This document shows positions 1,803-21,423 of a DNA stretch of 23,228 bases, in pieces. The position numbers were made by a program, and so were the translations under genes. Below the pieces are notes generated by a model, which ran no database searches, was not told the origin of the DNA, and saw only the letters and a list, made by a program, of their open reading frames with translations. The DNA comes from Aduncisulcus paluster (lineage: Eukaryota; Fornicata), in contig BQXS01012537.1 in NCBI GenBank assembly GCA_024181965.1, positions 6,475 to 29,702 on the forward strand, in the 5' to 3' direction. Position 1 is the stretch's first letter. The number at the start of each line of letters is the position of its first letter.

Positions 1803-1874
1803 ATCAACTTGATCAATGATAAATTTCATCCCTCTCCGAGGTGTATGTAGAGCCTCTACATACACTGAGTCAGT
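1803..1874. repeat. palindrome cluster 3' of the SLC35F6-like gene
   Basis: Three odd-centred inverted repeats lie within 90 bases of the stop. ATCAA-c-TTGAT (1803-1813) runs straight into a further ATCAA, giving arm, complement, arm. GTGTATGTAGAG (1841-1852) and its exact complement (1854-1865) are 12-bp arms around one C. ACTGA-g-TCAGT (1864-1874) shares two bases with the previous right arm. The 12-bp perfect stem is the longest in the window. It may act in RNA (3' end formation) or as DNA. The rest of the spacer (1875-2077) is AT-rich with T runs and nothing else recognisable. Confidence 0.7.
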
Positions 1875-2077
1875 CATGAAGATTGAGGCTCGTTATATAT
1901 ATTTTGGAAATCTTAATTAAAATAATCAATATAGAATGCTTGAAGCATCGTATTTTTTCATTCTTTAATTCCAATAAATTGGTTTTGTGCTCGTATTTTT
2001 TCAAATCACATTTTTTGTTGTTTTTGTAGCTTTCCAAGCTTTTTGCTGAATTTTTTTGGCAATTAATATCCTTTTAT

Positions 2078-2596
2078 ATGTGGGATTCATATAGGTATAA
2101 TCCATATATCGTAAGAATTAGATTTTCTGATGTAAAGGCGATTTGTACAGGTGGATCTTCTCATAGGGATGCAATTGAGGCTTTAAAAGCAGAAAAACCC
2201 ATAGACTTCTTCTTTAAGCGTTTAAATATCCCTCTAGAAGCCCCATCATATGTCTATGCTGTTAATATGTGCGTTAGCGGTAATTCTTGTTGTCCTAGGT
2301 TTATTTTAATGCATGTTTATCTATTAAATGGAAAATTGGTCGAAAAAGAATTTTCTTTGACACACCCTAGATCAATAGCCGGTGAGTGGCAATCATTCTG
2401 TGTTGATTGTCACGATGTCATTAGAATCGATGTTATTCCACAGTCTGATTATGGGTATGGAATGATTAAAATATATGGAATGTTAATTAAATCTCGTGAT
2501 AGTAGTAGGGAAGAAGATAAGCTTGTTGAGAAAAATAGAAAACTTCGAACAACTCAACTTCAAATCCAACGGACCATACAAGACAAGAAAAAGTAG
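2078..2596 (+). CDS. hypothetical protein, possible beta-sandwich fold
   Basis: A 172-residue ORF from ATG 2078 to TAG. I do not recognise a confident family. Residues ~20-150 alternate hydrophobic strands: SYVYAVNMCV, FILMHVYLLNG, EWQSFCVDC, VIRIDVIPQ and MIKIYGMLI. The SSHRDAIEAL...FFFKRL segment followed by these strands is reminiscent of discoidin/galactose-binding-like domains (as in IFT25 or F5/8C proteins). That is a weak resemblance, not an assignment. The last ~25 residues are charged and may form a short helix (KLVEKNRKLRTTQLQIQ). No signal peptide or membrane segment is seen. Codons are AT-rich like neighbouring short genes. Confidence 0.7.
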   Translation: MWDSYRYNPYIVRIRFSDVKAICTGGSSHRDAIEALKAEKPIDFFFKRLNIPLEAPSYVYAVNMCVSGNSCCPRFILMHVYLLNGKLVEKEFSLTHPRSIAGEWQSFCVDCHDVIRIDVIPQSDYGYGMIKIYGMLIKSRDSSREEDKLVEKNRKLRTTQLQIQRTIQDKKK

Positions 2597-2648
2597 AATC
2601 AAAATCTTTTTTTTCCTGGTTTTAGCCATATACGAGAATAAAACTTTG

Positions 2649-2727
2649 ATGTCAAATTGACATAAAATAACCTGAAAATATGATAAAATAATATTAATAT
2701 TGGCAATGTTTTGAATAATTTATTCAA
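2649..2727. repeat. two odd-centred palindromes in the 2597-2790 spacer
   Basis: ATGTCAA-a-TTGACAT (2649-2663) has 7-bp arms. TTGAATAA-t-TTATTCAA (2711-2727) has 8-bp arms. Both are perfect and have a single central base. Between them lies the even palindrome AATATTAATATT. They occupy the 3' flank of the 2078-2596 gene and the 5' flank of the next. Confidence 0.65.
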
Positions 2728-2790
2728 TTCAGATGATATTCGTTCAATAACCGTCCAAATCTAAAATCTGCCCTTTTCGTTCCAAATCAA

Positions 2791-3455
2791 ATGCCAGTTG
2801 GATTATCCGATCGTCAATGTGATATACTTCTTGCAAGAGAAGAAAAAGAGAGGGACATTTCATATCATGCTGTTGTATGTTCATGATAATAGTAATTGCT
2901 ATTTTAAACACGATTTCAATGTTTTAAACTGATTTATTCTTATTTTTGAATACCATGTTTGGATTTCTTTAACAAATTCATCTTAATTTGATATGTGATA
3001 CATGAATTTGCTTGATTTCACATTCACCATTTTAGACAAATTTACCAAGAGTAGGTTCTTCTCCTGTTTTTTCATCCATGATAAATGAAGATTTGAGACC
3101 CAAACAATGGAGTTCTGAAATAGCCACCCCGATCCATATTTCCTCATCAAGTTCCCCATCCAAAATTGAACCTCAAAAGGAAGAAGAAGAAAAAGATCAA
3201 GAAACATATGCAACTAAAACAATTACGAATGCCCAATACATTGAAAAAAGACTCCTCGAAAATGGGGGAAAATGGATCACATCAAAACATCCCTTCTTTT
3301 CGGAATTACTTGATGTATGTCTAAAATCAATGAGTTTAGACGAATCCTTAGAATTTGTTCTTGGTTTTGAAAAGAAATTTATATCCAAAATCGATTCGAT
3401 GTCCAGTATTGAAAAGACAGAGTTTTTAGAGAGTACAAAGAAAATTATTGAATGA
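2791..3455 (+). CDS. two-exon hypothetical protein
   Basis: Exon 1 (2791-2874) starts ATGCCAGTTGG and encodes 28 coding-like residues (MPVGLSDRQCDILLAREE...). At 2875 it meets GTATGT and would otherwise hit a TGA at 2884. The downstream frame is preceded by TAG at 3033-3035, exactly at a TTTTAG acceptor. Exon 2 (3036-3455) then reads TNLPRVGSSPVF and on to TGA. Joining the exons in phase 0 gives 167 residues. The sequence has a polar serine- and glutamate-rich middle (SSSSSPSKIEPQKEEEEKD) and a helical C-terminus (HPFFSELLDVCLKSM, ESLEFVLGFEKKF). No known domain, signal peptide or membrane helix is recognised. Without splicing the first internal ATG is at 3078. The spliced model is an inference from frame and splice-site agreement. 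Confidence 0.65.
2875..3035 (+). other. predicted spliceosomal intron, 161 nt
   Basis: The donor is GTATGT and the acceptor TTTTAG, preceded by a C/T/A-rich stretch. A stop in each flanking frame lies at or just inside the boundary, and both exons stay in phase 0. The intron is AT-rich (runs of TTTAAA and TTTTTG), in contrast to the exons. No strict CTAAC branch site is visible near the 3' end; CTTGATTTC about 20 bases upstream is a possible one. Confidence 0.65.
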
Positions 3456-3585
3456 ATTAGTTAAATAACGATAAAATAAATATGTCCTATCTCCTAACAT
3501 CCAATTATTTTTCTCCCTGTATTTTTCATTTTCCAATTCCGTGTTTGTTCACACCTACAGAGAAGATATCGAAGATATTCGAATA

Positions 3586-6500
3586 ATGCAATATAAAATA
3601 CTCAGTAGAATTGGATCTGGTGGGTTTGGTGTGGTATATAAAGTTCAAACAGAGCATGGTATCATGGCTCTAAAAGCTACCCATCATACAAGTGAAACTG
3701 AGTTTCGAAAAGAATTTAAGAAGTTAAAAGTCCTAAGTCGACTAGCTCCTAATGCTGTTCCGAAACCAGTCAGTGTTATTACCAATATCCCGGGATATAA
3801 AATAGGATACCTCATGGAATATATGAATGGAGGTGATGTTCTCTCATTTGCGCAAAAATGGGGGAAAAATGATCCAATTAAACGCTCAATTATTGTATAT
3901 AAAATGTTAAAAGCGCTCTCAGAACTCCATAAAATCGAGTTTGAAGGTAAGAAGCTCGTTCATCGTGATATTAAACCTGCCAACTTTCTTGTTAATATTG
4001 ATCCGGTTCAATCACACTCCTTTAATTCAATTCATTTAAAATTTCAAGTGGTTGTCAGTGATTTGGGCTTCACAAGTCTTAAGGCCGAATCATTGTTCTC
4101 ATTTCGATCCATTCGATCCCCTGCCTCCGATGAACCAGCAGTGACAGACGCCCCTCTTGCTGGTACTCCCGTTTATTTTTCTCCTGAAATTTTGAGGAGC
4201 GGCAAAGTTACACAGGCAGGCGATGCTTGGGCGGCGGGTCTTTCTATCTTCACTATATTTTCGAATACACCCCCATTTCTCTCACATCCATGTCTTCGGG
4301 GAGTCACTGATCCAATTGATATTTGTGAGAAAGTCTTGAATCTAGTATTGAAGGATCGCCTGCCCTCTCTCGATGACACCTCGATCTTTGAGCAGCTCAA
4401 GTTCGTTGGAAAGACTGGATATGACCTGAGTGACCTTGACAAGCCCCATGTATTGAAGCTTATTGAAGCCAGCAAGACATTATACACAAGAATCAAATAT
4501 ATCTACAAAGCTATGACCCGCCAGTCGAGACGGGAGAGAATGAGTGTCATTGTGGCGGAGGAAAGGATGAGAGATGTTTTAGAACCGTGGATGGGAACTG
4601 ACCCTGGAAGGAAACCATCTGTGGATGGGAAGTTAAAGGAGGACAAACTCAAAGAAGAGAAGAGAAGAGGAGAGGAGAAGAAAAAGGATGAAGAAAAGAA
4701 AAGACGGACCAGAAAATCCTCTTTTGACCGTCATTATTCACAGGATTCGAGTGAAGGAAGCTCCTCTGGGACAACCCATAGTACTAGCCAATATTCTGAC
4801 CATGCCAGAAAACTCTCAGACGATCAAGCCGAGCGCCTTGCACGTCGTGGTTCTTGGATGGATCGGAATGAGGGACATATCCGTCGTAAGAGCCGAGAAG
4901 AGTCGTATCCGAGTGAATCCTCCCATGAAAAGCCCACAAAGCGTTCCACCAAACCATCCTCCAAGCCCTCATTCCCTCCTCTTGACTTTAGTTCAAGGCC
5001 TCCACCAATCCAAACCCCCAGTCTTGAGGTGGGAATGTATGTAACGATCAACCCAAGCTCCTTCTCTCCAAGATATGGATGGGGTGGTGTCAAGAAGGGT
5101 GAAGAGGGCGTTGTTGTCAAAGTATGTGCCGATGGAGATGTTATTGTTGATTTTCCTCAGTGCAAAGGGTTCCTTGTGAGCCGTGAAGATGTCAAACAAC
5201 TTAGTAAGGCAGACACCTCGAAGACTCTGAAGCCATCCTGGCGTCATGGAGAAGGTTCTTCCAACCCACAGTCTCCCCACAAAGAAAGAACACACGGTTC
5301 AACCCGCGAAGGTCGTATCTCGAAGGAAGCCAAACAGACATCTGATGTCACTGGCATTGGCTCAATTCCAACCAAAGCCACGGCCGGTACTATGCTCCGT
5401 CATCGCAAACCGTATCATATCCGTAAGCTCAGTGATGAGTTCAAACGGCAGCAGCGTGCTACCCTCCCCCATGTTGCCCCTTCAGCCTCCTCACGAGCTT
5501 CAACAGGACGCCCAGATATGAGCGATAGTGATAGCTCTAAGGAGGACAGCACAAGCAGTCGAAGACAGCCAAGGACCCGCATGAGTGTGTTGCGCGGAAA
5601 GCTTCAAGAGAAGAAAGATATGACCCGACACGAGTCCCATGTTACTCTTGGATCTAAAGCTTCATCCAGATCTGCTCGCAAAGATGCGACCGATGCGTCT
5701 ACCCTCCCTAAACGATCGTCTGTCGGCTCAAGGCTCAGTGCGATGGAAAGAAATGTGTCCGTAGATACTCATAGTGATCGGGATGATGAGGATTCTTACC
5801 CACGCAAGGTTGATATCCCTTCTTCGCCCACATCAAGTACTGAGTCCACCAGTGGTAATCGTGGGAAAGGTCCCATTGGAAGGAGCAAATCTTCTGCCTT
5901 TCCTTCTGGAGCTCTCCCAGACAAACCGCAGCATCGAAGGGAAACCAGCGATGCTTATCTTGTCCCTCGTGCCGTTTCTGATACATCCCTGGCCTCGCTG
6001 CCTGGATCTGGAATCCGTTCTTTCTCACCTCATATCGGAGATTGTGTATATGCTGGGACTTATGGTTTTGGAAGTATTGTCTTTGTAGGTGGAGATAGAT
6101 GCATCGTTGATACGGGATGTGATGAACCCATTCTCGTGTCTTCATCTGTCTTGACTTTTATTGACTCAGTCCTCACCAAAAATGGTTTCAAAGCCCCTCT
6201 CCCGTTCTCCTCTTATCTAGCTTTCTGGTTCTCAAGAAGTTTCAACCCCCGTATTCTTGCCACTTTCAACGAAGAACAAGAAGAAGGGCAGGAAGAACAT
6301 GATGTGGCGGAAGTTCAAAAGGTTGGTACAACTGGAAAGAAATGTACCTTCAAAACCAAACAAAAGAAGAAATCGTCTAAAAAACATCGGTCAAAGTCAC
6401 ATTCCATCCCACTTTCAAAGAGATTCCCTGGATCTGGATTGTTCCCATCTCTCACATCTCGATTCTTTTCACTGATTGCTCCTTGGAATCTCCATTTAAT

Positions 6501-7512
6501 TAAACCTGGACTTAGAGTTCGAGTTATGGACACCTCTGGTATGTTTTCCACGGATTCTGATACTCCATCCTCAGTTGCATCTGTTCTGAGAACATTCGGT
6601 GTGGATAATTATAGCATCGGTATCGTTCAAGCTCTCAAATGTGAAGAGGAAATATGTCAATTGAGAAAATATTTCGACACTTCTGTGGGTCTGTCTTCCA
6701 GCAAAAAAGATATCCATGCCAAGAGTAATAATGTAGAATCATCTGGTGGTTTATTCTCACCCTCAGTTTCTCAATCTATTCTTAGATATTTATCACTCCC
6801 TCTTCTCAAGATTACTGTTAGGTTTTCGAAAGAGATTGTTCTTGATGTGCCTCTTCTCTACCTGTATTCGGTCGATCGTAACAAGATTATTAGATCATCC
6901 GAAACGTATGGTTTTGTTTGTCCATCCATCAATTCGTTATCTAGATCAGGCCGTAAACAAAGTATTTCAGGTTCTTCTTCTTCGTCTTCTTCTTCTTCTT
7001 CTTCTTCTTCTTCTTCTCCCTCTTCCTTTTCTTCCACTTCAATTCGTCTCACTTCTGCTATCGATGATCTTCTCCTATGTGATGGCGATGAAGTCTCTTT
7101 CCATCTTTCTGACCCCCATCAGTCAGACGACTATGAGTGCCTTGAAGAGTCCGATTGTACTGAAGTTCTCTATAGAGTGAGTCTGACGGGTAGAAAGATG
7201 CTTGGAAGCAAGACCACATCTGGCATATTGGATGCTTCAATCATTCGTGGGAATGCAATCGTGTGCTCCAATAACATATCAGTCATTTACGACGACGAAG
7301 AAGGCGCTTCCGTCGTGAAAAGGAAGGATCTCCGAGTACCCTATGATTCTTCAAGGTCTAAACATTCTTTAGAGGTTCATAACGAGCATATTGAAAAGTC
7401 TTTTGTTTATAATTCTCCTTTCTTTATTGTTCACAATCCAGCAATGGCCATATTTGTGAGCATTATAATTGTTTTTGCATTAATCTTTGTCATTTTTTCA
7501 ATGATATTATGA
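3586..7512 (+). CDS. protein kinase with Mind bomb/KEG-like SH3 repeats and C-terminal membrane anchor
   Basis: 1308 residues from ATG 3586, the first in-frame ATG; the frame is open further upstream but without one. N-terminal kinase: glycine loop GSGGFG (10-15), beta-3 lysine K30, HRDIKPAN (126-133), DLG at 159-161 in place of DFG, SPE (199-201) and DAWAAG (213-218). All catalytic residues are present, so it is probably active. A long basic, serine/arginine-rich region follows. At ~480-540 VGMYVTINPSS...PRYGWGGVKKGEEGVVV...GDVIVDFP resembles SH3-like repeats of Mind bomb and plant KEG. Two weaker copies appear near 814-860 (IGDCVYAGTYGFGSIVFV) and in the C-terminal third (GLRVRVMD...YSIGIVQ, then VRFSKEIVLDVPLLYLYSV). 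The last ~21 residues (AIFVSIIIVFALIFVIFSMIL) are a hydrophobic tail anchor ending at the stop. This would place the kinase on a cytosolic membrane face. A TCT/TTC tract encodes polyserine. Confidence 0.85.
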   Translation: MQYKILSRIGSGGFGVVYKVQTEHGIMALKATHHTSETEFRKEFKKLKVLSRLAPNAVPKPVSVITNIPGYKIGYLMEYMNGGDVLSFAQKWGKNDPIKRSIIVYKMLKALSELHKIEFEGKKLVHRDIKPANFLVNIDPVQSHSFNSIHLKFQVVVSDLGFTSLKAESLFSFRSIRSPASDEPAVTDAPLAGTPVYFSPEILRSGKVTQAGDAWAAGLSIFTIFSNTPPFLSHPCLRGVTDPIDICEKVLNLVLKDRLPSLDDTSIFEQLKFVGKTGYDLSDLDKPHVLKLIEASKTLYTRIKYIYKAMTRQSRRERMSVIVAEERMRDVLEPWMGTDPGRKPSVDGKLKEDKLKEEKRRGEEKKKDEEKKRRTRKSSFDRHYSQDSSEGSSSGTTHSTSQYSDHARKLSDDQAERLARRGSWMDRNEGHIRRKSREESYPSESSHEKPTKRSTKPSSKPSFPPLDFSSRPPPIQTPSLEVGMYVTINPSSFSPRYGWGGVKKGEEGVVVKVCADGDVIVDFPQCKGFLVSREDVKQLSKADTSKTLKPSWRHGEGSSNPQSPHKERTHGSTREGRISKEAKQTSDVTGIGSIPTKATAGTMLRHRKPYHIRKLSDEFKRQQRATLPHVAPSASSRASTGRPDMSDSDSSKEDSTSSRRQPRTRMSVLRGKLQEKKDMTRHESHVTLGSKASSRSARKDATDASTLPKRSSVGSRLSAMERNVSVDTHSDRDDEDSYPRKVDIPSSPTSSTESTSGNRGKGPIGRSKSSAFPSGALPDKPQHRRETSDAYLVPRAVSDTSLASLPGSGIRSFSPHIGDCVYAGTYGFGSIVFVGGDRCIVDTGCDEPILVSSSVLTFIDSVLTKNGFKAPLPFSSYLAFWFSRSFNPRILATFNEEQEEGQEEHDVAEVQKVGTTGKKCTFKTKQKKKSSKKHRSKSHSIPLSKRFPGSGLFPSLTSRFFSLIAPWNLHLIKPGLRVRVMDTSGMFSTDSDTPSSVASVLRTFGVDNYSIGIVQALKCEEEICQLRKYFDTSVGLSSSKKDIHAKSNNVESSGGLFSPSVSQSILRYLSLPLLKITVRFSKEIVLDVPLLYLYSVDRNKIIRSSETYGFVCPSINSLSRSGRKQSISGSSSSSSSSSSSSSSSPSSFSSTSIRLTSAIDDLLLCDGDEVSFHLSDPHQSDDYECLEESDCTEVLYRVSLTGRKMLGSKTTSGILDASIIRGNAIVCSNNISVIYDDEEGASVVKRKDLRVPYDSSRSKHSLEVHNEHIEKSFVYNSPFFIVHNPAMAIFVSIIIVFALIFVIFSMIL
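6972..7040 (+). repeat. TTC/TCT microsatellite encoding polyserine
   Basis: A nearly pure TTC/TCT trinucleotide run inside the kinase gene encodes about 17 consecutive serines. It is likely variable in length between strains. It sits between the third SH3-like region and the C-terminal domain, so it is probably a flexible linker. Confidence 0.85.
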
Positions 7513-7530
7513 TAACTTCATTATCATAAT
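7506..7530. repeat. 10-bp stem-loop overlapping the kinase stop codon
   Basis: ATTATGATAA (7506-7515) pairs exactly with TTATCATAAT (7521-7530) across a CTTCA loop. The TGA stop (7510-7512) lies inside the left arm and is followed in frame by TAA, so the arm carries tandem stops. A perfect 10-bp stem at a stop codon suggests a role in termination or 3' end formation. Confidence 0.65.
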
Positions 7531-7579
7531 CTCATACTCTCAATATCTCAATATATATAGAAATAGATACATACTCCAA

Positions 7580-7624
7580 GATTTTTTTCCATTTTTTTTG
7601 AACTTTTTTTCTTTTTTTTTTCTC
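7580..7624 (+). repeat. T-rich tract
   Basis: Four T runs of 7-10 bases broken by short non-T stretches lie between the kinase stop hairpin and the palindrome array at 7626. It could be a polypyrimidine signal or simply low-complexity spacer. Confidence 0.6.
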
Positions 7625-7625
7625 T

Positions 7626-7794
7626 TCACTGCCAGTGAGCCTCACTATCAGGCTGATAGCTTATTATTAATAATATCGTGAATCATACCACGATTCTTCA
7701 AAATGACCTGAATAAATAACTTTTAGAGAAATTACGAAAGTTAGAAACACTGCCAGTGTTAACATAAGTCTTATGTTTGACACTCACAGTCAAA
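7626..7794. repeat. dense palindrome array reaching the MFSD1-like start
   Basis: In order: TCACTG-c-CAGTGA (7626-7638); AGTGAG-c-CTCACT (7634-7646); CTATCAG-g-CTGATAG (7645-7659); the even palindrome TATTATTAATAATA (7662-7675); ATCGTG/CACGAT with an 8-base loop (7675-7694); AACACTG-c-CAGTGTT (7746-7760); AACATAAG-t-CTTATGTT (7761-7777); TTTGAC/GTCAAA with a 7-base loop (7776-7794). Neighbours overlap or abut. Two share the core CACTGCCAGTG. The 7761-7777 element contains the first ATG (7773) of the next gene. Such packing is far beyond ordinary AT-rich spacer. Confidence 0.75.
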
Positions 7795-9458
7795 TCAGCT
7801 TTTTTTTGAAGAATCAAAAGGATATGCCCAATATTGTGGGAGAAAAATCCAATTTTGGTTCGACCATACGGATAATTTGTGAGGTAATTCTCAAAATCTT
7901 TATTATTTTGACCCTTACGACCGGCACGTGTTTTTTTTACAATTCTGTGAATGTTTTAGGTTCAAATCTTCTTGAAAATTATGATACAAGTGATTCTATT
8001 CTCTCAATCTCATATATGGTCCACTCTTTAATGTCCATTCCCATGTCACTGTTTAGTGGTGTTATTGCTGATAAACTTGGATGTAGTTTAGTTTCTTTGA
8101 TCTTAACATTGATTGTATTCCTAGGCACGCTTATATCTGCGATATCTGGGACTTCTATTTTTGTTTTCCTCCTCGGCCGCTTTCTCTATGGAATTGGAGC
8201 TGAAGCCACTCTTTGTGTTCAAACCAAATTAATTGTTGATTGGTTTGATGGGTTTTTAAAGACATTGTCTTTTGGTCTTGCTTTTCCTTTCTATATGCTC
8301 CCTGAAATTTGTTGTGGTCTCATTCTTCCCAAAATAGTTCAAAATGCTGATTCTCTCCATCAAGGAGTCTCCCATGCTCTCTGGATATGTGTTGCAGTGA
8401 GTGCCTTTTGTGTTTGTTTCAGTGGTATTCCCATATTCTTCCTCTATGAGAAATTTAAGGTTTCAAGAACCTCTCCGATCCTGGAACCAGAAACAACACC
8501 AACGGATAAAACTACGACCAAGAATATGTCAGGAAAATATCAAAAGAAACATCCTCATTTGAAGGATTTAGAACCACTTTCCCAGATGATGGACCAAGTT
8601 ACTCATGATTCTCTCATAAAAACGTCATCTTATGGCCAAGAAATGCAAGTCTCCAATGAACGAGTAACGGGCCCCATCCTCAGTTCAACAAGCCCCTCTC
8701 CTTCAAGCTCACCATCTCACTCTCGTTCCTCTTCATTTTCTGAACAAGTTGTGATAGATCGTGAAAACACCCATAATCGAAATAATATATCATTGGACAA
8801 TGTTGAAGGAGAGGATAAAGAACATCATTCTACTTCGTTATGTTCAGATAAAATAAGTTTATTTTTCTCAAATATTCCTACAGTTTTATTCTTTCTATTT
8901 ATCATATTTCGTTCTTTGTTCATGGCTGCCTACACTGTTGTCGTCAATATCTCAACTACTATTGTGGTAGATGTGTTCTCATTCGCTGAAGAGGATGCTC
9001 CTCGTGTGTTCGTCGTGATTCAGGCTACAGCTTGTGTCGCATTCCCAATCATGTCTATCCTTTCTCACCTCATCCTCCCTTCTCCAATGCTTCTAATTGG
9101 AGGGATTTCTCTCTCTTTTGGAGTGAGTTTTGGTGTGCTTCAATGGGGAAATGCATGGATGTTCGCTGTCTTCTTAGGCCTAGCCTTCTCGATGGCAGGT
9201 CCAACTGGTATTATCATGCTTACCAATATCGTAGGACATGAACGAACTGGAACCGGGACTGGATTGCTATATACCATTCAGTTTGCATTAATGAGTGTTC
9301 TATTACCTATTTTTACCTCAATGCGAAAAGGTCTTGGATATCAATTTGTGTTGTTTATTGTTGAAATTATTGCAATATTATCAACCATTGGGTTCACCGT
9401 GATCACTGTTATCGATATCAAACGACATCATAGTGCCCAAAAACACACTAACGCATAA
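7773..9458 (+). CDS. MFSD1: MFSD1-like major facilitator transporter
   Basis: 561 residues from ATG 7773, or 544 from ATG 7824 (MPNIVGEK). The later start is attractive because 7773 lies inside a palindrome. It is a twelve-helix MFS protein. The first half has a motif A-like GVIADKLGC between helices 2 and 3, then FLLGRFLYGIGAEATLCVQTK with IVDWFDG. This matches the MFSD1 pattern GRFVFGIGGES...AQNTYAVSWF. A polar, serine-rich central loop of about 140 residues separates the halves and is longer than usual. The second half has FRSLFMAAYTVVVNI, GLAFSMAGPTGIIMLTNIV and a glycine-rich RTGTGTGLLYTIQFALMS helix. Animal MFSD1 is a lysosomal dipeptide transporter. Membership is inferred from motifs, and substrate specificity is unknown. 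Confidence 0.75.
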   Translation: MFDTHSQISFFLKNQKDMPNIVGEKSNFGSTIRIICEVILKIFIILTLTTGTCFFYNSVNVLGSNLLENYDTSDSILSISYMVHSLMSIPMSLFSGVIADKLGCSLVSLILTLIVFLGTLISAISGTSIFVFLLGRFLYGIGAEATLCVQTKLIVDWFDGFLKTLSFGLAFPFYMLPEICCGLILPKIVQNADSLHQGVSHALWICVAVSAFCVCFSGIPIFFLYEKFKVSRTSPILEPETTPTDKTTTKNMSGKYQKKHPHLKDLEPLSQMMDQVTHDSLIKTSSYGQEMQVSNERVTGPILSSTSPSPSSSPSHSRSSSFSEQVVIDRENTHNRNNISLDNVEGEDKEHHSTSLCSDKISLFFSNIPTVLFFLFIIFRSLFMAAYTVVVNISTTIVVDVFSFAEEDAPRVFVVIQATACVAFPIMSILSHLILPSPMLLIGGISLSFGVSFGVLQWGNAWMFAVFLGLAFSMAGPTGIIMLTNIVGHERTGTGTGLLYTIQFALMSVLLPIFTSMRKGLGYQFVLFIVEIIAILSTIGFTVITVIDIKRHHSAQKHTNA

Positions 9459-9480
9459 TATAAAAATTGTCTTTCTTGTG

Positions 9481-9500
9481 ATTGAATCAATGTGATTGAT
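9481..9500. repeat. short arm-complement-arm palindrome between convergent genes
   Basis: ATTGA-a-TCAAT (9481-9491) is followed by ATCAAT-gtg-ATTGAT (9486-9500). The middle arm can pair with either outer arm. It lies 22 bases after the MFSD1-like stop, in the 110-bp gap between convergent genes. The arms are short, so chance is harder to exclude than for the other clusters. Confidence 0.4.
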
Positions 9501-9568
9501 ATCTTAAGTAATCCCTCCAAATTCAGCTCTTTATCAAGATATATATATTGTACTAGATATTCTATTTA

Positions 9569-11638: not shown

Positions 11639-11988
11639 TACCAGGTATCAATCCATTACATCAAAATGCGCAGAATTATTTTTCTCTGGTACTCATGCAA
11701 ATTCAGAGCTTCCCATAATTATCTGTTGGATGAAATCACATTTAGTGTTTTTTTCGGATTGAAGTTAGATCCGATGATTATAAGCCAAGAACTTTCATGG
11801 TGGACGGTTGAATTTAATATGCAAAATATTGCAATAATAAAAATTCATTTTTATTTTATTTTTCATAAAAATATCAATATTCAGTTGATATATATAAATT
11901 AATTCAGTTGTCTGGCGGTTTCTCGGATCTGTTTCTATTTTTATTCTTTTTTCGCTCGTTAAATATAATCAAGAAACACACCTTTTAA
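11639..11988. other. divergent spacer with a 7-bp hairpin
   Basis: 350 bases between the minus-strand 689-residue gene and the Myb-like gene, so both promoters should lie here. I see TCGGAT/ATCCGA with a 9-base loop near 11756-11776, and ATATCAA/TTGATAT with a TATTCAG loop at 11871-11891. The rest is AT-rich. A 78-codon frame at 11666-11902 has AT-driven codons and no protein-like pattern, so I do not call it a gene. The Myb start codon sits in CTTTTAAATG. Confidence 0.5.
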
Positions 11989-12894: not shown

Positions 12895-13350
12895 GGATCA
12901 TTTTCCGCTTTCTATGACTTAATTTCTTGATTATTTTCAATTTATAATTCTTACAATCATTAATATTTTCTTATTTTGCGTATTTTATTATTCTCTTGCG
13001 TTTTAATATCTTTTGTTTACAAATTCTTGTTTTTGCGTCTGTGTTTTCATCCTTCTATGATATCAAATTGCGTTGCGTTGTCATTTCTACCTTTTCTTTC
13101 AATATATTAAGATTTTTGTATATTTTTTTTATTATGTCCTTCTATTTCATGCGTTTTTTTTTTTTTTTTGTTCTAATTCTTGCGAAAACTATTCATTTCA
13201 ATTTAGAAATTCTCAGATTTCTTATATGTGACTCTTTCTTCCCTGCGTTTTTTCTTTTTTTTTATAATTTACCAGTGATAATGATCAATGTCATTATTCT
13301 GGTGATTCTTCTAATCCCCTTCAGTAAAACTATTCTCTTCTTTGAGCGAA
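12895..13350 (+). other. T-rich 3' flank of the Myb-like gene with repeated TGCG motif
   Basis: A T-rich stretch with an 18-base T run near 13153. It contains TTGCGT at 12976, 12996, 13033, 13068 and 13073, ATGCGT at 13149, TTGCGA at 13180 and CTGCGT at 13243. An open frame at 12996-13373 is a product of this composition (phenylalanine- and isoleucine-rich) and is not called as a gene. It is probably a long 3' untranslated region or an unrecognised RNA. Confidence 0.5.
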
Positions 13351-13353
13351 TTG

Positions 13354-13487
13354 ACCACAATAGTGGTGGCTAGCAAATTTATTCGGGAGGCAGTGACCGG
13401 TACAGCCGGGGAATGCCGGTTAGTAACCGGTTACCATCACATCAACTTGATGATCAAGCGAATTGTCAATTTATGACTTTATAAATT
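13354..13487. repeat. palindrome cluster between convergent Myb-like and TRM11 genes
   Basis: ACCAC/GTGGT with an AATA loop (13354-13367); CCGGTTA-g-TAACCGG (13416-13430), whose right arm runs into the even palindrome GTAACCGGTTAC (13423-13434); CATCAA-c-TTGATG (13440-13452), overlapping CTTGAT-g-ATCAAG (13446-13458); AATTTAT/ATAAATT with a 6-base loop (13468-13487). The stretch 13385-13440 is a GC-rich island of repeated CCGG within AT-rich DNA. It is about 40 bases 3' of the TRM11 stop (on the minus strand). Confidence 0.7.
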
Positions 13488-13526
13488 AGATTTGTATCAA
13501 ACTGAACACTTTCAATTAAATCTAAA

Positions 13527-15197: not shown

Positions 15198-15369
15198 CCG
15201 CTTCAATAATCCCAGATTCAATCAAACACGTTGATATTTTATCATAGGCCAGTATGTCCCCTTCATAATGAATAATACAATGAAATTGAAAAATAATAAA
15301 GAAGATAATAATATGTATTCAAATAAATTCAATGTAATTAATGAATAGCACCAGACATTATCAAAGAAC

Positions 15370-15511
15370 AGAAAAACCGTTTTTCTACTAGAACAACTAG
15401 TAGTTGTTTTTCTTGAAGGTATTTTCCAGAGTCTGGAATCCAGACTTTTTCTCGATCATAGAGATGAGTTCGTCATCCACCGTGGATCTGTGACAGATCA
15501 ATCTTCAAGAT
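15370..15511. repeat. dense palindrome array upstream of TRM11 and the large membrane-protein gene
   Basis: Eight inverted repeats in 142 bases: AGAAAAAC-c-GTTTTTCT (15370-15386); CTACTAG/CTAGTAG with an AACAA loop (15385-15403); AACAACTA-g-TAGTTGTT (15392-15408); TTCCAGA-g-TCTGGAA (15424-15438); AGTCTGGA-a-TCCAGACT (15430-15446); ATCCAC-c-GTGGAT (15475-15487); GATCTGT-g-ACAGATC (15485-15499); ATCTT-c-AAGAT (15501-15511). Most have one central base and successive elements overlap. It lies between divergent genes, about 170 bases from the TRM11 start and 310 from the other. The flanking parts of the spacer (15198-15369, 15512-15710) are AT-rich without further recognisable features. Confidence 0.75.
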
Positions 15512-15710
15512 AAAGGGTGAATTACCTTCAGCCGGGTAACTTGAATCTCATTATAAGTGAGCAAAACACAAATTAACGCATTTATTTTATTAAAAGCTAC
15601 TTATAAAGATTCAAAAAGGTTTTTGTTTTAAAAATCCTCCAAAATTTTTCTTTATTTCTATGACGGCAAATCTTTGCATAAAAACTTCCAAAACGGATTC
15701 AATTCAATTT

Positions 15711-15743
15711 TTTGGGGATATCTCCCCAAATGAGAATTGGGGA
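15711..15743. repeat. TTGGGGA / TCCCCAA / TTGGGGA triple-arm hairpin
   Basis: TTTGGGGA (15711-15718) pairs with TCCCCAAA (15723-15730) over a TATC loop. After seven bases TTGGGGA (15737-15743) repeats the left arm, so the middle arm can pair with either side. It lies about 75 bases upstream of ATG 15819 and could be a 5' UTR switch or a factor-binding site for the large membrane-protein gene. Confidence 0.6.
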
Positions 15744-15818
15744 TGGGCCTCAAATAACCACTTTTATGATCAGCCTTTTTCCTGACAATATTAAATCTTT
15801 TTGATATATAAAAGAGAA

Positions 15819-16457
15819 ATGAGATTTTTAAATCGACTTTTCGTCTTTTCTTGTATCTTGAGTTTATGTTTCTTGTTTTGCCATGGATTCAGAAATGGAT
15901 TCCAAATTCCATCTTTCATTCTTGAAGAATTGAAAGATTTAACCCCTTGGGGTTCAAGAAGTGTGATGTTGACCGAGACTAGATCAGCCTTTGAACCAAT
16001 ATTTGGTGAATTCTCTCTAGATTCTCTTGACTATGTTGACGACATTATTCCCGTGATCAAGAGGATGTCGACTCACATCGCCGCTCCCGTATTGCCTCTA
16101 CAGAACCACCCTCTTATAGCTGGCGCCAAATTCTTTGATTCTAAGAGTTTGATTGAAGGAACGGCTGTATCATCACAGTTATCCACAGATGTCCCACTGA
16201 CCGACCAAGATTTCCATGTATTTATCCAAACCGATAACGTTGAAGATGTTTTGGCTTCCGATATCTCTGAGGAAGTTGAGATAAAGCTGTTCTCTGCAAT
16301 CGTCCAAGAATATCTCTCCGAACTCTACTTCAGCCATCCTGACTTTCCCAACAGTGTGTTCAAGGTCCACTATTGTGTTGATTCCTCGGATCTTGAGAGT
16401 GAAGACGTGTCTAAACTCTCAAACCTCCACATGTGCCATGTTACTGGTAAGAAGTAA
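15819..16457 (+). CDS. N-terminal segment of a large secretory-pathway membrane protein
   Basis: This ORF starts at ATG 15819; the frame is open back to 15801 without another ATG, and a TATA-like GATATATAAAAG lies just upstream. The first ~23 residues are a classic signal peptide (MRFLNRLF, then a C/L/F-rich core, ending CHG). A polar, aspartate- and serine-rich extracellular-type sequence follows with no recognised domain. The frame ends at TAA 16455-16457, but the next frame is already open from 16451 with the same style of sequence. The break can be removed by an intron 16447-16520 (donor GTAAGA, acceptor CTGACCCAG) that joins HVT to DFERYLDD in frame. Otherwise it is a one-base frameshift. 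I take it as the first part of one gene ending at 21279. Confidence 0.7.
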   Translation: MRFLNRLFVFSCILSLCFLFCHGFRNGFQIPSFILEELKDLTPWGSRSVMLTETRSAFEPIFGEFSLDSLDYVDDIIPVIKRMSTHIAAPVLPLQNHPLIAGAKFFDSKSLIEGTAVSSQLSTDVPLTDQDFHVFIQTDNVEDVLASDISEEVEIKLFSAIVQEYLSELYFSHPDFPNSVFKVHYCVDSSDLESEDVSKLSNLHMCHVTGKK

Positions 16458-16520
16458 CAAGTGTCTTAAGTGGACTCACAATGAACGTAAAATCCAACTC
16501 TTTGGATGATGCTGACCCAG
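16447..16520 (+). other. candidate 74-nt intron in the large membrane-protein gene
   Basis: The donor is GTAAGA and the acceptor CTGACCCAG, with CTGAC as a branch-like element placed directly before the AG, as in short introns of some anaerobic protists. Removal restores a single frame across the two ORFs. The competing explanation is a one-base deletion (biological or sequencing) near 16449-16457. Residues encoded between 16481 and 16520 look coding-like, which is mild evidence against the intron. Confidence 0.4.
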
Positions 16521-19024
16521 ACTTTGAGCGTTATCTCGATGATACGACAGCTTATGATGTATTTCAGGTTGGATATAATCCTGATTTGCCTGTTGATTCA
16601 TCTGATGACTATTCAGCTATTTCTGACAACTCATCTTTGAATATGAATGCCCAAATTGAATTATATGTGGATATTACAGTATTCGGAGGTATCAAAGAGT
16701 TTAGGTTGGTGTTTCAGGCCGACACATACAACGCTTCAGATCATGATATCACCATCAGCAATGCCTTCGATGAGGAACAAACGTCCAAACACTCCTTCTC
16801 CAATCTTATTGAGGAAACAAAATTTGGCAGCCTGCTCGATTTCACCCTTCTGGGTCTGGATCTCAGTTCTGGCTTCTTTTTTTCTGTTGACATGACAAAT
16901 GACATGGAGTTCCAAGGTGAATTTGAGCACACTTTCAAAGCCAAGCAGTCCAACAGGATTGTATTTGGAATTACCAAAGTTAATGGCGAGTGGAGCAACT
17001 TTTACAAAACCACTGAACCCAATATGGTGATTGAAGAGAATGTCCCAAGTATTTCATCAAGTAATCAGGACAATATGTCGAATTTCATGCTCCAATACAC
17101 CATTGCTATTATTCCTTCGTTCGAGTTTAAATTGTTCGGTTCTTCACTGGCGCTGCTTGGAATTGAAATGAGTTATCAGCAAACCCTAATTGCTTCATCG
17201 ATGTGCTCTACGACTTCCATGGACACAAAATCATTGGTCTCCTTCACCTTGCACACTCAAATTCTTGACTACACACATGATTTTCCCCTTGGAACCACCC
17301 ATGAGTCTGAACAAGAGATTGGAGACAGTCAACTTCTCCCACTGAGTGTCATTGACTCCACGAATGCTATTGGATGTGTTGGGCCGGATAGTATTGCAGA
17401 CAATCAAGATTTTCCGAGAATTCCTCCCAATCTGGTTGATCCTGAGGAAATTCATTTGCAGATTAATATAGATTACACTTGTTTAAGCGGAAGGTCTTTT
17501 GAAGAAGTAAGTGGAACAATCCAATTGGGAAATAAGAAAACGTCGTACTCTTATTATGAATATCCGTACCATAAGAACAAAAACGATAACTATCGTCTTG
17601 TGGCGTGGAAGGAACTGATCACAGTAGATTCCGATGATGTATTCACGATTAGTATTCATAACGATGAGTGGTGGCATGAAGATGATCAATCTTTCCATAT
17701 TGGCCCTGTTTCTGACATGTTGTCGGAACTTATTAACAATGTTTATACATGTCAATTCCAGTGGTATGACCAGAATAACGACGGTCACCACCTTCTTGAT
17801 ATATCTATTACATTTTTGGCTCGGAGCATTGATCTTGGAATACCTTATCCAGAGTGGTATACGTCGGATCAATATAGTACTTATCTCGACAACTGGTATC
17901 ACACTTCAATGCCTCGTTGGTCAGATAGTCTCACCGTTTATCCGTTTTTAGAACCTGTCTATCAGTATACTCCATTTGTTAATGAAGATGAAATGGTGTA
18001 TACTTTCTTCCCTGATGTCAACAACTTTCAGATATTTCAGGATATGGAAGTCACCTTCCCTCTTTGGATGAGTACACGCTATTCTTCAGTTGATAACCCC
18101 GAAATGATGGTGGATTCTGATGGAAATTATCATGATGCTATTGTGTTCTACAATGATACCTTTGATTATCGAGCCATTCGAGAGTATTTTCACTCCTCCC
18201 CTAATGATTTCTCTGAATATTCTTCAATGATTAGGATGAATATGGAATGCTATGGGTCTTCCTCATCAAATGCATATTCTCTCTATTACATGTGGGAGTC
18301 GAATAAGTATTATTACGAGTTAGATTATAGTGTTTATCCAAATGTTCCTTTAATTTGGGACATTGATTCTCATTCCAACAATCAGGACGAATTTCCATTT
18401 GCGTGGGGCTCCTCCATCTTTTCTGCTTCATTTAACCCTTCTCAACCAGAAATGTGCCTTCAAAAGGATCATATTGGATTCAAATTCTATTCTGATTCTC
18501 TATTCAATTCGTATACTCTGAAGGGTGATATTGAATTGGATGATTCATATTTCTTACAGTCGAATGATGGTTCAATGATTTGGGAGACTCAAGACGGTGA
18601 TTCTTATTGTAAATTGTTCTCGCATGTTCAAAACCCCAGGCTCTGGGTCAGAGCAGAACTATCCTCTGGAAACACTAATCCCTTCAATGGTATTGATTGG
18701 TTCTCTTTTGTGCCAACTGCTCAGCTCTTTATTGATGGCGGCAATGTCTCCATGAGCACTAACATTGGAGATGAGGATTCCCCGTTCAGTTCGCTTGTCA
18801 GTCTTGCATTTGATCCTCATTCGATGATCTCTTTACTTGATGGAACAGAATGGACAGAAAACGTCAGCTTCCTTTTCAGGTATACTATTGAAGATATAGA
18901 TCGGGAAGCTGGTGTTCCTATCCCTTCCTCTTCCATTGAAGTTCGGATCGGTGGTGGATTCTCAGGTCTTTCAGAATATTCAGACTCAACATATTCAGAA
19001 TCTTCAGGCCAAATGGTTCCTTAG
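16451..19024 (+). CDS. central ectodomain segment of the large membrane protein
   Basis: The frame is open from 16451; the first ATG is 16481 and TAG lies at 19022-19024, giving 847 residues from that ATG. It lacks its own signal peptide and membrane anchor, so it is most simply the middle of a larger protein. The sequence is rich in Ser, Asp, Asn, Tyr and aromatic residues, with alternating strands (IELYVDITVFG, EFRLVFQADTY, FLFRYTIEDI), many N-x-S/T sites (NAS, NDT, NVS) and scattered cysteines. This suits a beta-rich glycosylated ectodomain. No domain family is recognised. After the TAG the same frame continues for 116 codons in the same style, so the stop seems to interrupt rather than end the protein. 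Codon use is even along the ORF and like that of the flanking segments. Confidence 0.65.
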   Translation, partial: EVTSVLSGLTMNVKSNSLDDADPDFERYLDDTTAYDVFQVGYNPDLPVDSSDDYSAISDNSSLNMNAQIELYVDITVFGGIKEFRLVFQADTYNASDHDITISNAFDEEQTSKHSFSNLIEETKFGSLLDFTLLGLDLSSGFFFSVDMTNDMEFQGEFEHTFKAKQSNRIVFGITKVNGEWSNFYKTTEPNMVIEENVPSISSSNQDNMSNFMLQYTIAIIPSFEFKLFGSSLALLGIEMSYQQTLIASSMCSTTSMDTKSLVSFTLHTQILDYTHDFPLGTTHESEQEIGDSQLLPLSVIDSTNAIGCVGPDSIADNQDFPRIPPNLVDPEEIHLQINIDYTCLSGRSFEEVSGTIQLGNKKTSYSYYEYPYHKNKNDNYRLVAWKELITVDSDDVFTISIHNDEWWHEDDQSFHIGPVSDMLSELINNVYTCQFQWYDQNNDGHHLLDISITFLARSIDLGIPYPEWYTSDQYSTYLDNWYHTSMPRWSDSLTVYPFLEPVYQYTPFVNEDEMVYTFFPDVNNFQIFQDMEVTFPLWMSTRYSSVDNPEMMVDSDGNYHDAIVFYNDTFDYRAIREYFHSSPNDFSEYSSMIRMNMECYGSSSSNAYSLYYMWESNKYYYELDYSVYPNVPLIWDIDSHSNNQDEFPFAWGSSIFSASFNPSQPEMCLQKDHIGFKFYSDSLFNSYTLKGDIELDDSYFLQSNDGSMIWETQDGDSYCKLFSHVQNPRLWVRAELSSGNTNPFNGIDWFSFVPTAQLFIDGGNVSMSTNIGDEDSPFSSLVSLAFDPHSMISLLDGTEWTENVSFLFRYTIEDIDREAGVPIPSSSIEVRIGGGFSGLSEYSDSTYSESSGQMVP

Positions 19025-19372
19025 AAGCTGTTTACATCCACTCCATCTGTTAGCACAGATGGTAATTCCGATGCCAACACCATTCCTCTGACAAGCGTCT
19101 TCCATTCTGATCATACTGTGCTTATTCCATATTCTTTTGTGGAAGTTGATCAAGAAACTCGTGATGCCCATGCTGACAATAAGCTCACCCACATCCTTCT
19201 CAAGCTCACCAGAAATGACATTGAAGACACTTCTCAGGACTCATTTGGTGTTACATCTTCATCCGCATCTATTGTTCCTTTATGGTTGAAAACAAACATT
19301 GCAGGTTCTCTGTTCATCAAAGATAGGTTTCCAACTATTATTCCGATTGTTGTTACCCTTCGTGGAACATAA
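19025..19372 (+). CDS. in-frame continuation beyond an internal TAG
   Basis: 116 codons in the same frame as the preceding ORF run from just after TAG 19022-19024 to TAA 19370-19372. The encoded stretch (TSVFHSDHTVLIPYSFVEVD, LTHILLKLTRNDIED, IVVTLRGT) has the same ectodomain character and codon use. Eighteen bases after the TAG, CCATCTGT (19043-19050) and ACAGATGG (19055-19062) form a perfect 8-bp stem with a TAGC loop. An intron from 18966 (GTCTTTC) to 19058 (CACAG) would also remove the stop in frame, but its donor is poor. Readthrough, a nonsense mutation and a sequencing error remain open. Confidence 0.5.
   Translation, partial: KLFTSTPSVSTDGNSDANTIPLTSVFHSDHTVLIPYSFVEVDQETRDAHADNKLTHILLKLTRNDIEDTSQDSFGVTSSSASIVPLWLKTNIAGSLFIKDRFPTIIPIVVTLRGT
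19043..19062 (+). repeat. 8-bp stem-loop downstream of the internal TAG
   Basis: CCATCTGT and ACAGATGG are perfectly complementary across a TAGC loop. It is the clearest hairpin noticed inside the large membrane-protein reading frame, and it begins 18 bases after the interrupting TAG. That geometry is compatible with, but does not prove, a recoding stimulator. Confidence 0.5.
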
Positions 19373-21279
19373 ATGGTCTATTCTTCTTCTTTGATGGTTC
19401 TACTGATGTGTGGAATGAAGTTGCATATGGGAATCCTATTCAGTATTTGCCCATGACCAATGCTAACAATGATGACATTGGCATTCCAATAAGTACATCT
19501 TTCCAGACACAAAGTCGTGGTATGTACCAAATTAACAACATTGAGAATGTTTCGTCTGGCGATCACAATCCTAGTTTTATTGATGACTTCACAAGAGACG
19601 GATACATTATGTTCCAGACAGCAATGATGTATGGAAGGATCGTATTCGCTTCCGAGTTTAATGCTCTTGTGATTCCAATGTATGATGTTGATGGTCATGA
19701 ATTCAATCAGAAGAACTCCAGTTCTCTTCGAATTGATATCGAGACAGACCAAACTAGCCCGTACTCTTCCGTTTTCATTCACAACACTTCATTTGCTGAT
19801 GGGAAAATGCTAACAATTGAGAGCAAGAACTGGCAAGAAGATTCTCAGAAACTGGTTGCTAATTTCTGGCCTATTGTCAATGGCAGCGGTGAGGTTTTGT
19901 TTCCAGACGACGCAACGTCCTCTCCTTCCGATGATCCATGTTCCCTCGATTCCTCAGATGTTGTCACGTCATTCGATGGCAGGCTTTCTCTTGTGAATGA
20001 TGAGGATGGGTATTGGCAGGTCACTGTGTGTTCCCCCGAGTCTTCCTCCCTGACAACCACTCAGTTGTATGTGTCCACTGTGTCCACGTTCTTGATTGAT
20101 CCCAACGCAATAGTCCTCGTCGCTGATCTTCTCGAATACATCGAGGATGATTCTACCATTCATTTCATTCCCGTGTCTGACGTCGATGTGTCTGACTATG
20201 AAAGGAAGCAATTCAATGATAATTACGCGTTGGTAAGCTATTCTCGCGCTTGTTCATCATACATCAGTGGGATTAACATGGATGTTTCTGACTATATTTC
20301 TCTGAATGCTAAAGATGGTGTCACTGATGATTACCCTCTTCGAATGACTTCAGCGATGCAATGGTATGACAAACAGATTTTGATACTCAATTCTGACGAA
20401 AAGAGTGGAGACATTGATCATATTGTCGTGACAAACTCAAACTGGAGTCCGGATGGACATTTTGTGTTGAAACAACTTAACATGGATGCCGAATTGACAA
20501 TTTCCCTTGTCGCCACTGCTAATCTTTTAGAAGAACAAGATCAAGAAGAGGAAATTGTCAGTGATGTCGGTGATAGTAATTTTTTGGCCTCATTCCAAGT
20601 CGGTCTTCTCCTCTATTTCACCAGTGAAAACGATGCTGAGACTGTCATGTTCTCCAATAGTGTGTTCGCTAATCAATCATCTGTGACATCCTCTCTGGTC
20701 AATGTTCTTCAACATGTTACGTTTGATGGAAATGAAGAGTTGCAGTCTTGCTTGAACGATGAATCTCTCGATATTGAGTTCATCAACCGTTCCAAGGTCT
20801 CATATGGAATCCTTTTCACCTGTTCACTCCCACAAAACTTTGAAATGCCCTCTCACATGGATGTTGACGGGACATTCGAGATGACTTCCATGTTCAATCA
20901 TGATGTATTGCCCGTGCATTTCTCCGTCTATGACATTTCTGCGTTTGAGAAGAGTCCTCTGTCGTCCACTTCAGTTTGTGGGAATCTGAGTGCCCGTGCT
21001 CCTTCTTTCCATCCTCCTACAATTCCTCCCTCCACTCCCGCAGAAGATAGCACGAATGGATGGATCATTCTCTTGTGGATTGGTGTTCCTTTGATTCTTG
21101 TTTCCGTTGCTATCATTTTGACTTTCATTCTGGTGAAAAGGAGGACTTCAACCAAGAAGAAAGCCAATATGCAAAGTGGATCCGCAAATAGTGACGTTCC
21201 CATACCATCAATGCATGTTAATCCACTAGCAACGATCATCTCTCCTTCTGGGCTATCTGGCCAACTTGAAAAGATTTAA
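19360..21279 (+). CDS. C-terminal segment of the large membrane protein with its membrane anchor
   Basis: This frame overlaps the end of the previous one. It reads NGLFFFFDGSTDVWNEVAYG upstream of any usable start, then runs to TAA 21277-21279 (623 residues counted from the GTG at 19408). There is no in-frame ATG before it that would make a natural start, nor a signal peptide, which argues for continuation by a one-base shift or splicing near 19349-19372. The ectodomain part repeats the Asp/Ser-rich style, with PPTIPPSTPAEDS as a stalk-like linker. A single transmembrane helix (WIILLWIGVPLILVSVAII) is followed by basic KRRTSTKKK and a ~40-residue cytosolic tail, giving type I topology together with the signal peptide at 15819. 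The full gene would encode about 1,800 residues. It is probably a surface glycoprotein; function unknown. Confidence 0.65.
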   Translation, partial: SWNINGLFFFFDGSTDVWNEVAYGNPIQYLPMTNANNDDIGIPISTSFQTQSRGMYQINNIENVSSGDHNPSFIDDFTRDGYIMFQTAMMYGRIVFASEFNALVIPMYDVDGHEFNQKNSSSLRIDIETDQTSPYSSVFIHNTSFADGKMLTIESKNWQEDSQKLVANFWPIVNGSGEVLFPDDATSSPSDDPCSLDSSDVVTSFDGRLSLVNDEDGYWQVTVCSPESSSLTTTQLYVSTVSTFLIDPNAIVLVADLLEYIEDDSTIHFIPVSDVDVSDYERKQFNDNYALVSYSRACSSYISGINMDVSDYISLNAKDGVTDDYPLRMTSAMQWYDKQILILNSDEKSGDIDHIVVTNSNWSPDGHFVLKQLNMDAELTISLVATANLLEEQDQEEEIVSDVGDSNFLASFQVGLLLYFTSENDAETVMFSNSVFANQSSVTSSLVNVLQHVTFDGNEELQSCLNDESLDIEFINRSKVSYGILFTCSLPQNFEMPSHMDVDGTFEMTSMFNHDVLPVHFSVYDISAFEKSPLSSTSVCGNLSARAPSFHPPTIPPSTPAEDSTNGWIILLWIGVPLILVSVAIILTFILVKRRTSTKKKANMQSGSANSDVPIPSMHVNPLATIISPSGLSGQLEKI

Positions 21280-21332
21280 GGTATATTGTGCATAGTTTAA
21301 TAGGTTGTTTATTGTGTTTACTAAAACTGTGA

Positions 21333-21423
21333 GTTTAGCTGCTAAACGTTAGCATACACGTATTGGTTTCTCCTTGATAAACAAGGTTTTCCTTCGTCAA
21401 TCATTTGACCCCGGTCAATGACG
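21333..21423. repeat. palindrome cluster 3' of the large membrane-protein gene
   Basis: GTTTAGC-t-GCTAAAC (21333-21347) is followed by TGCTAA-acg-TTAGCA (21340-21354). CCTTG/CAAGG with an ATAAA loop (21372-21386) runs on to a further CCTT at 21391. GTCAA (21396), TTGAC (21405) and GTCAA (21414) alternate around the stem TTGACC-cc-GGTCAA (21405-21418), closed outside by CGTCA/TGACG (21395-21423). All show the arm-complement-arm arrangement seen elsewhere. Confidence 0.7.

Follow-up and report, generated by a model that had tools for sequence, protein, structure and literature searches.

Intergenic palindromes centred on a single base in Aduncisulcus paluster are probable excision footprints of hAT-type transposons

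Cut-and-paste transposons of the hAT type can leave palindromic footprints at the sites from which they excise, and we compare with these footprints a set of palindromes, each centred on a single base, that lie between the genes in a stretch of 23,228 nucleotides from Aduncisulcus paluster (the window; bases 6475-29702 of contig C312, GenBank BQXS01012537.1). According to published reports, footprints of the hAT element Ac/Ds are palindromes centred on the complement of the base beside the transposon ends; the arms measured at least 3 in 47% of the footprints in baker's yeast, with a maximum of 20, and at most 3 in Candida (PMC5873905). In Arabidopsis and baker's yeast, most joints show putative microhomology (PMC5873905; PMC1978519), and the report on a Ds element places the cleavage at the nucleotide flanking an insertion with a 7-bp duplication (PMC1978519). 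hAT elements generate 8-bp duplications, and Hermes is reported to leave flanks that are capped by hairpins (PMC4763223). The same account describes Kat1, a domesticated hAT transposase of Kluyveromyces lactis that likewise produces breaks whose flanking DNA is capped by hairpins (PMC4763223). The role of Kat1 is in switching at the mating-type locus, whereas the marks described here are dispersed and their putative source is an element.

The A. paluster palindromes resemble the Ac/Ds footprints described for plants and yeasts in being insertions centred on one base, which would be the complement of the base that bordered the transposon. In the Ac/Ds accounts, palindrome length varies, whereas the perfect products observed here contain the whole duplicated target, inverted, between both direct copies, and the scars have built up in the intergenic DNA of a natural genome. 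There is a further likeness to the V(D)J recombination of immune genes. At V(D)J coding joints, a hairpin is opened off-centre, which leaves a palindrome at the joint. These P nucleotides are also brought into the comparison in the report on Ds (PMC1978519); unlike in V(D)J joining, the annealing of the two hairpins here appears to span the whole target duplication. Neither an immune locus nor RAG was seen to be linked to the palindromes, and no search was aimed at such a link. The initial annotation knew of no named element of this kind in protist nuclear genomes, which may hold for palindromes of this form, but the literature does have a name for palindromic footprints of transposon excision (PMC5873905). 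The titles and abstract openings of the open-licence articles surveyed gave no description of the pattern in a protist, which is no proof of absence.

The palindromes are, with good confidence, excision footprints of hAT-type cut-and-paste transposons, a reading in which we infer the hAT origin, the hairpin steps, and the derivation of the two-arm palindromes. They probably record past transposon activity and not regulatory signals, and they most likely represent a known kind of scar, found here in an unusually complete form and density through natural accumulation.

Excess and geometry of the palindromes

The window belongs to a draft assembly of 7,088,625 bases in 397 contigs, from which we analysed a main sample of 156,370 unmasked bases on 13 contigs; a further stretch, on C11, was wholly masked. 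A gene caller based on codon usage identified 76 reading frames, resulting in 124.6 kb (124,584 bases) of coding and 31.7 kb (31,731 bases) of intergenic DNA. Introns and missed exons are counted as intergenic, so that the palindrome signal should mostly be diluted. Palindrome counts were compared with dinucleotide-preserving shuffles, 60 for intergenic and 20 for coding DNA. The intergenic DNA contained 37 palindromes with one central base and arms of at least 7, against 5.8 ± 2.2 in the shuffles (maximum of 11 among the 60), and 15 with arms of at least 8, against 1.6. There was no excess in coding DNA (11 versus 12.7). The excess over chance that had been estimated by hand for the window is thus borne out by the comparison of coding, intergenic, and shuffled sequence, here run on the sample.

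All 13 palindromes of the initial annotation exist at the positions given, with arms of 7 to 12 and one central base, but those at 15424 and 15430 are two faces of one structure, and a 14th, at 8258-8272 inside a gene, was absent from the list. The statement that they fill most intergenic spacers was too strong, as, of the sample's 70 spacers with a length of 60 bp or more, 22 carry one. Counted by centre, the sample holds 39 palindromes (37 being those wholly within a spacer segment), which group into 32 separate events; two of the 39 are identical tandem copies on contig C2. Scaling the excess of 31 in 31.7 kb to the intergenic fifth of a genome of 7.09 Mb suggests about 1,400 palindromes, with masked stretches ignored.

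The geometry is well defined. Smaller intergenic excesses were observed when the arms are separated by 0 (9 versus 4.9), 2 (14 versus 5.7), or 3 bases (18 versus 5.3), weaker ones at separations of 4, 5, and 6 (10 versus 5.4, 9 versus 5.5, and 11 versus 6.0), and from 7 to 15 the observed counts were 6-9 against 5.2-5.8 in the shuffles. For arms of at least 6, a separation of 3 gave 61 versus 19, a count in which the sites with one central base are contained. By exact arm length, the largest absolute excess occurred at 7 (22 versus 3.9), followed by 6 (26 versus 13.8) and 8 (10 versus 1.3). When six of the offsets 1-7 from the centre are paired, the remaining one is paired as well in 0.59-0.79 of cases (base rate 0.28); the value is 0.41 at offset 8 and 0.30 at offset 9, where the symmetry is at background. 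The innermost pair is about as strong as the outer ones, which argues that the palindrome centre is not a hairpin loop.

Three origins had been offered for the palindromes, and two of them, 3' end signals and sites for dimeric factors, are not supported by these data. RNA hairpins at transcript 3' ends would accord with three window palindromes, at 1841, 2649, and 21333, that begin 53-55 bp past a stop codon. However, convergent, tandem, and divergent spacers carry 9, 15, and 7 events against 6.6, 14.4, and 10.0 expected (P = 0.41, an event at a contig end omitted), and five palindromes lie between two divergent genes. It is this location among the spacer classes that makes transcript ends an extremely improbable origin. 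Furthermore, a single base closed by a base pair does not make a stable hairpin loop. A search of the window for RNA families gave a single match up to E = 0.5, at 24.8 bits, where the gathering score is 62.

Sites bound by a variety of homodimeric transcription factors, some of them in arrays of alternating orientation, would explain the two-fold symmetry on a base, the intergenic position, and clusters such as that at 15370-15499. Two of the arms are indeed frequent in inverted pairs across the genome, since CCAGA..TCTGG was found 74 times and CACTG..CAGTG 82 times at separations of 0-12, against 22 for each of the reversed controls. Yet neither arm shows a clear peak at a separation of 1, which accounts for 4 of 50 and 5 of 50 of the places listed (74 and 82 in total) where 3.8 would be expected from an even distribution. 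As the initial annotation had stated, the arms differ everywhere and only the geometry is common; because the arms share no half-site, the dimer reading fails, and with relatives that lack the palindrome at two sites (see below) we consider it very improbable.

A three-part structure and relatives that lack it

Among overlapping palindromes with arms of at least 5, the centres are 6, 7, and 8 bases apart in 3, 6, and 4 pairs, respectively, against 0.2-0.35 each in Markov-resampled sequence, and most such pairs, when written out, form one three-part structure. Its complete form is t1..t(n-1), followed by the reverse complement of t1..tn and by t2..tn, mostly with n = 8. The inverted copy thus has all n bases, whereas the direct copies are one base short, at the end of the left one and at the start of the right one. 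The palindromes at 15424 and 15430 are the two centres of such a footprint at 15424-15445, which is perfect with n = 8 for the target TTCCAGAC and reads TTCCAGA + GTCTGGAA + TCCAGAC. A second perfect footprint in the window, at 13440-13458, has n = 7 and the target CATCAAG (CATCAA + CTTGATG + ATCAAG); it was missed initially because its arms measure only 6.

The formula was evaluated against 300 first-order Markov resamplings. Five perfect cases with n = 8 were found in the intergenic DNA (resampling mean 0.01, maximum 1) and three with n = 7 (mean 0.03), and there were none of either length in coding DNA. The numbers for n = 5 and n = 6 were close to chance (3 versus 1.8 and 1 versus 0.25), and the scan gave no perfect case with n = 9 or n = 10. 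When up to one mismatch was allowed, n = 8 gave seven cases against a mean of 0.09. Only the layout in which one base is lost per side yields perfect cases with n = 8, namely five against zero in six alternative end-offset layouts; with n = 7, a single perfect case turned up in each of three of these six. From loci fetched later we assembled a second set, 23.4 kb of unmasked DNA, leaving aside those that repeat the main sample and L030-L032, which had been chosen for a palindrome core; coding and intergenic DNA were not separated in it. It adds three perfect cases with n = 8, in L046, which came from a comparison of dispersed-family copies, and in L034 and L045, which were fetched for other questions, resulting in a total of eight. 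The same kind of extrapolation as above, again with masked stretches ignored, suggests about 360 perfect three-part scars genome-wide.

In coding DNA, no match to the formula with one base lost per side was found for n = 7, 8, or 9 with up to one mismatch. This bears on the idea of an assembly or amplification artefact, for which one may point to the draft state of the assembly with its 397 contigs. An artefact should strike coding DNA as well; that DNA is clean, with neither palindrome excess nor formula matches, and the artefact reading, to which we give almost no credence, fails for this reason.

Many palindromes have two arms only. A third copy, complete or partial, of at least 4 nt adjoins 16 of the 39 palindromes, against 1.7% with random flanks; counted by event these are 11 of 32, one of them AT-rich. 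A further three events, among them the two identical C2 copies, match the formula except for one base. In the window, a partial third copy adjoins the left side of the palindromes at 2649-2663 (5 nt) and 15392-15408 (4 nt). Eight others are without it and are putative footprints, located at 1841-1865 (arms of 12), at 2711-2727, 7761-7777, and 15370-15386 (arms of 8), and at 7645-7659, 7746-7760, 15485-15499, and 21333-21347 (arms of 7); that at 7761-7777 directly adjoins its neighbour at 7746-7760. Such two-arm palindromes fit joins with a trimmed second target copy, or later decay.

The palindromes in general might also stem from the repair of breaks without any transposon, in which an end snaps back, is copied, and is joined, as in synthesis-dependent end joining of the polymerase-theta type, which likewise leaves local inverted copies at repaired breaks. 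The many palindromes that lack a third copy and the expected presence of local inverted copies speak for this route. However, snapping back needs a loop, so that separations of 3 or more should dominate, whereas the counts peak at a single central base and the innermost pair is about as strong as the outer ones. In addition, a random break predicts neither an n of 7-8 nor the one-base offset on both sides that characterize the three-part form. We therefore regard break repair of this kind as improbable.

Two sites could be compared with relatives that lack the palindrome. In L046, the target ATGAAACG, which is intact in seven relatives (L047-L053), reads ATGAAAC-CGTTTCAT-TGAAACG, which is the exact product for n = 8 with a gain of 14 bp and follows the formula to the letter. 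The insertion is also absent from L054, which has two other bases within the target, and the alignment of the family copy on C4 stops short of the footprint position. For this comparison, 9 of the 14 other long family members were fetched. The family itself is a dispersed element of about 222 bp (C4:7163-7384, L012); besides this copy it comprises 14 long matches, 73-96% identical, and 8 partial ones. No terminal repeats were found for the C4 copy and no Rfam match for the C4 spacer, and the element may be either mobile or a family of genes for non-coding RNA.

The second site is the footprint CCGGTTA-G-TAACCGG-TTACC at 13416-13435 of the window. Eleven of its bases are absent from four aligning relatives (L039, L040, L041, and L042), which read (C/T)(C/T)GGTTACC. 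A gain of 11 is odd and hence does not correspond to the exact three-part formula. The footprint is carried by a dispersed repeat of about 75-95 bp, of which a stretch at 13350-13422 on the forward strand matches five other places in the genome (on C26, C277, C30, C120, and C366), four of them over the full stretch and through the 13416 site; the fifth copy, L043, shows no homology at the footprint position. On C277, the repeat copy follows at a distance of about 50 bp on a hAT-type gene with an internal deletion. Searches found no relatives elsewhere in the genome for the spacers at 1787-2077 and 7513-7830, and for those at 15230-15800 and on C2 they gave no relative reaching a footprint. Both readable sites show an insertion relative to their relatives, which indicates that the palindrome was gained and made from DNA at the site. 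The third suggested origin, a product of replication or repair, was therefore right in kind.

Other repeated sequences were noted alongside the footprints. Four palindromes centred on one base lie within about 65 bp at L034:101-165, one pair of them forming the perfect scar with n = 8; clusters of scars such as this one and that at 15370-15499 of the window might reflect repeated insertion at preferred spots. On C2 (7380-8100, L008), tandem repeats of 495 bp, with 100% identity over the 392 bp compared, contain gene pieces and a footprint with one mismatch. A stretch of C382 (L028) is 97% identical to 15713-17312 of the window over 1.6 kb; the match begins shortly before the gene at 15819 and continues as far as the L028 sequence extends. 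The reading frame of the window breaks where the L028 copy reads on, and upstream of the matching part L028 has a tandemly repeated unit with the palindrome CCAATAAACTTTATTGG. Finally, a doubled element, TTCTAAAAATAGAA-N-TTCTAAAAATAGAA, is present at C2:5658-5686, C2:6066-6094, C8:8587-8615, and other positions in the genome. When up to 3 mismatches are allowed, the genome has 60 such places, including 18 exact ones, against 0 for the reversed control. The element resembles the MEF2/MADS-box site CTA(A/T)4TAG and may be a shared regulatory element.

hAT-type excision as the probable origin

The excision of hAT-type elements would account for the three-part structure in four steps. An element would insert and duplicate an 8-bp target t1..t8 (sometimes 7, perhaps 9 bp). 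On excision, the transposase would nick one base outside each end and the flanking DNA would be sealed as hairpins, so that the left tip reads ..t7-t8'-t7'.. and the single central base is the complement of the base bordering the element. Both hairpins would then be cut open, either where the duplication ends on the side away from the tip or further out, exposing the overhangs t8'..t1' and t1..t8, which are fully complementary. Annealing and sealing of these overhangs would give t1..t7, the reverse complement of t1..t8, and t2..t8, with a gain of 14 bp, and trimming or decay of the second copy would leave a two-arm palindrome of about 15-17 bp. The loss of one base per side together with a full inverted copy follows from hAT excision as described for Ac/Ds, in which hairpins form on the flanks and are then opened (PMC5873905; PMC1978519); the opening at the far edge and the annealing over n bases are what we infer in addition. 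The arms would differ everywhere because each copies its own target, and the geometry would be common because it is set by the enzyme. Scars would persist between genes, as a 14-bp insertion into an exon would usually be selected out.

The genome encodes proteins of the appropriate type. Matches to Pfam PF05699 above the cut-off were found at three places, on C326, C138, and C356, the first within an open frame of 885 aa, and other hAT-type sequences include decayed relatives, the gene copy with an internal deletion on C277, and fragments on C48, C175, and C356.

Several observations weigh against hAT excision. The value of n is not always 8, three perfect cases having n = 7, and the four cases counted at n = 7 when up to one mismatch is allowed do not exceed the resamplings (mean 0.9, maximum 6). 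In most events, 21 of 32, the third copy is absent or matches exactly over fewer than 4 nt. The inexact footprint at 13416 requires either n = 8 minus the first four bases of the second copy or n = 6 plus one base; in the former case, the missing bases coincide with a CCGG microhomology. hAT elements tend to prefer targets of the form nTnnnnAn. This preference was not clearly seen in nine 8-bp targets inspected by eye, in which 9 of the 18 half-positions fit against about 6 expected. Matches to hAT-like sequences are few (seven, the query included) compared with about 1,400 extrapolated palindromes. No convincing terminal repeats or 8-bp duplication were found around the two hAT copies examined, on C326 and C277, and the link from hAT gene to scar is hence a putative one.

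Two further points count against hAT excision, and both lead to another cut-and-paste family, for example Mutator-like elements with duplications of 8-9 bp and a similar route. A MULE-type transposase domain is encoded at G000:C39:17267-17560 in an open frame of 809 aa, and two sites, one of them AT-rich, fit n = 9 with one mismatch. The duplications of the element Muta1 measure 8 or 9 bp, but its excision was reported to be mostly precise where duplications were present, and without them the footprints were mainly deletions of 1-4 bp (PMC5225508). Perfect cases with n = 9 are missing from our data, and it is for Ac/Ds, a hAT element, that palindromes whose central base complements the bordering one have been described (PMC5873905). 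A Mutator-like source is thus unlikely, though it may account for some of the sites.

A more specific form of hAT excision can be envisaged, in which a regulated or domesticated system of the hAT type excises elements in large numbers and leaves nearly the same form of palindrome each time. Both hairpins would be opened exactly where the 8-bp duplication ends on its far side, and the transposase, which cuts with a stagger of 8 bp, might itself open them. We consider this form rather doubtful; if it were true, the intergenic DNA of A. paluster would be a readable archive of hundreds to more than 1,000 excisions.

Under hAT-type excision in general, an unexplained intergenic pattern becomes a countable record of transposon departures in a eukaryote. 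The full-length product suggests that the hairpins were cut at a distance from the tip and their ends annealed to each other, in contrast to the short footprints reported for Candida. The formula can be scanned for in any genome and would detect past activity where no element survives, and it cautions against taking such palindromes for regulatory sites.

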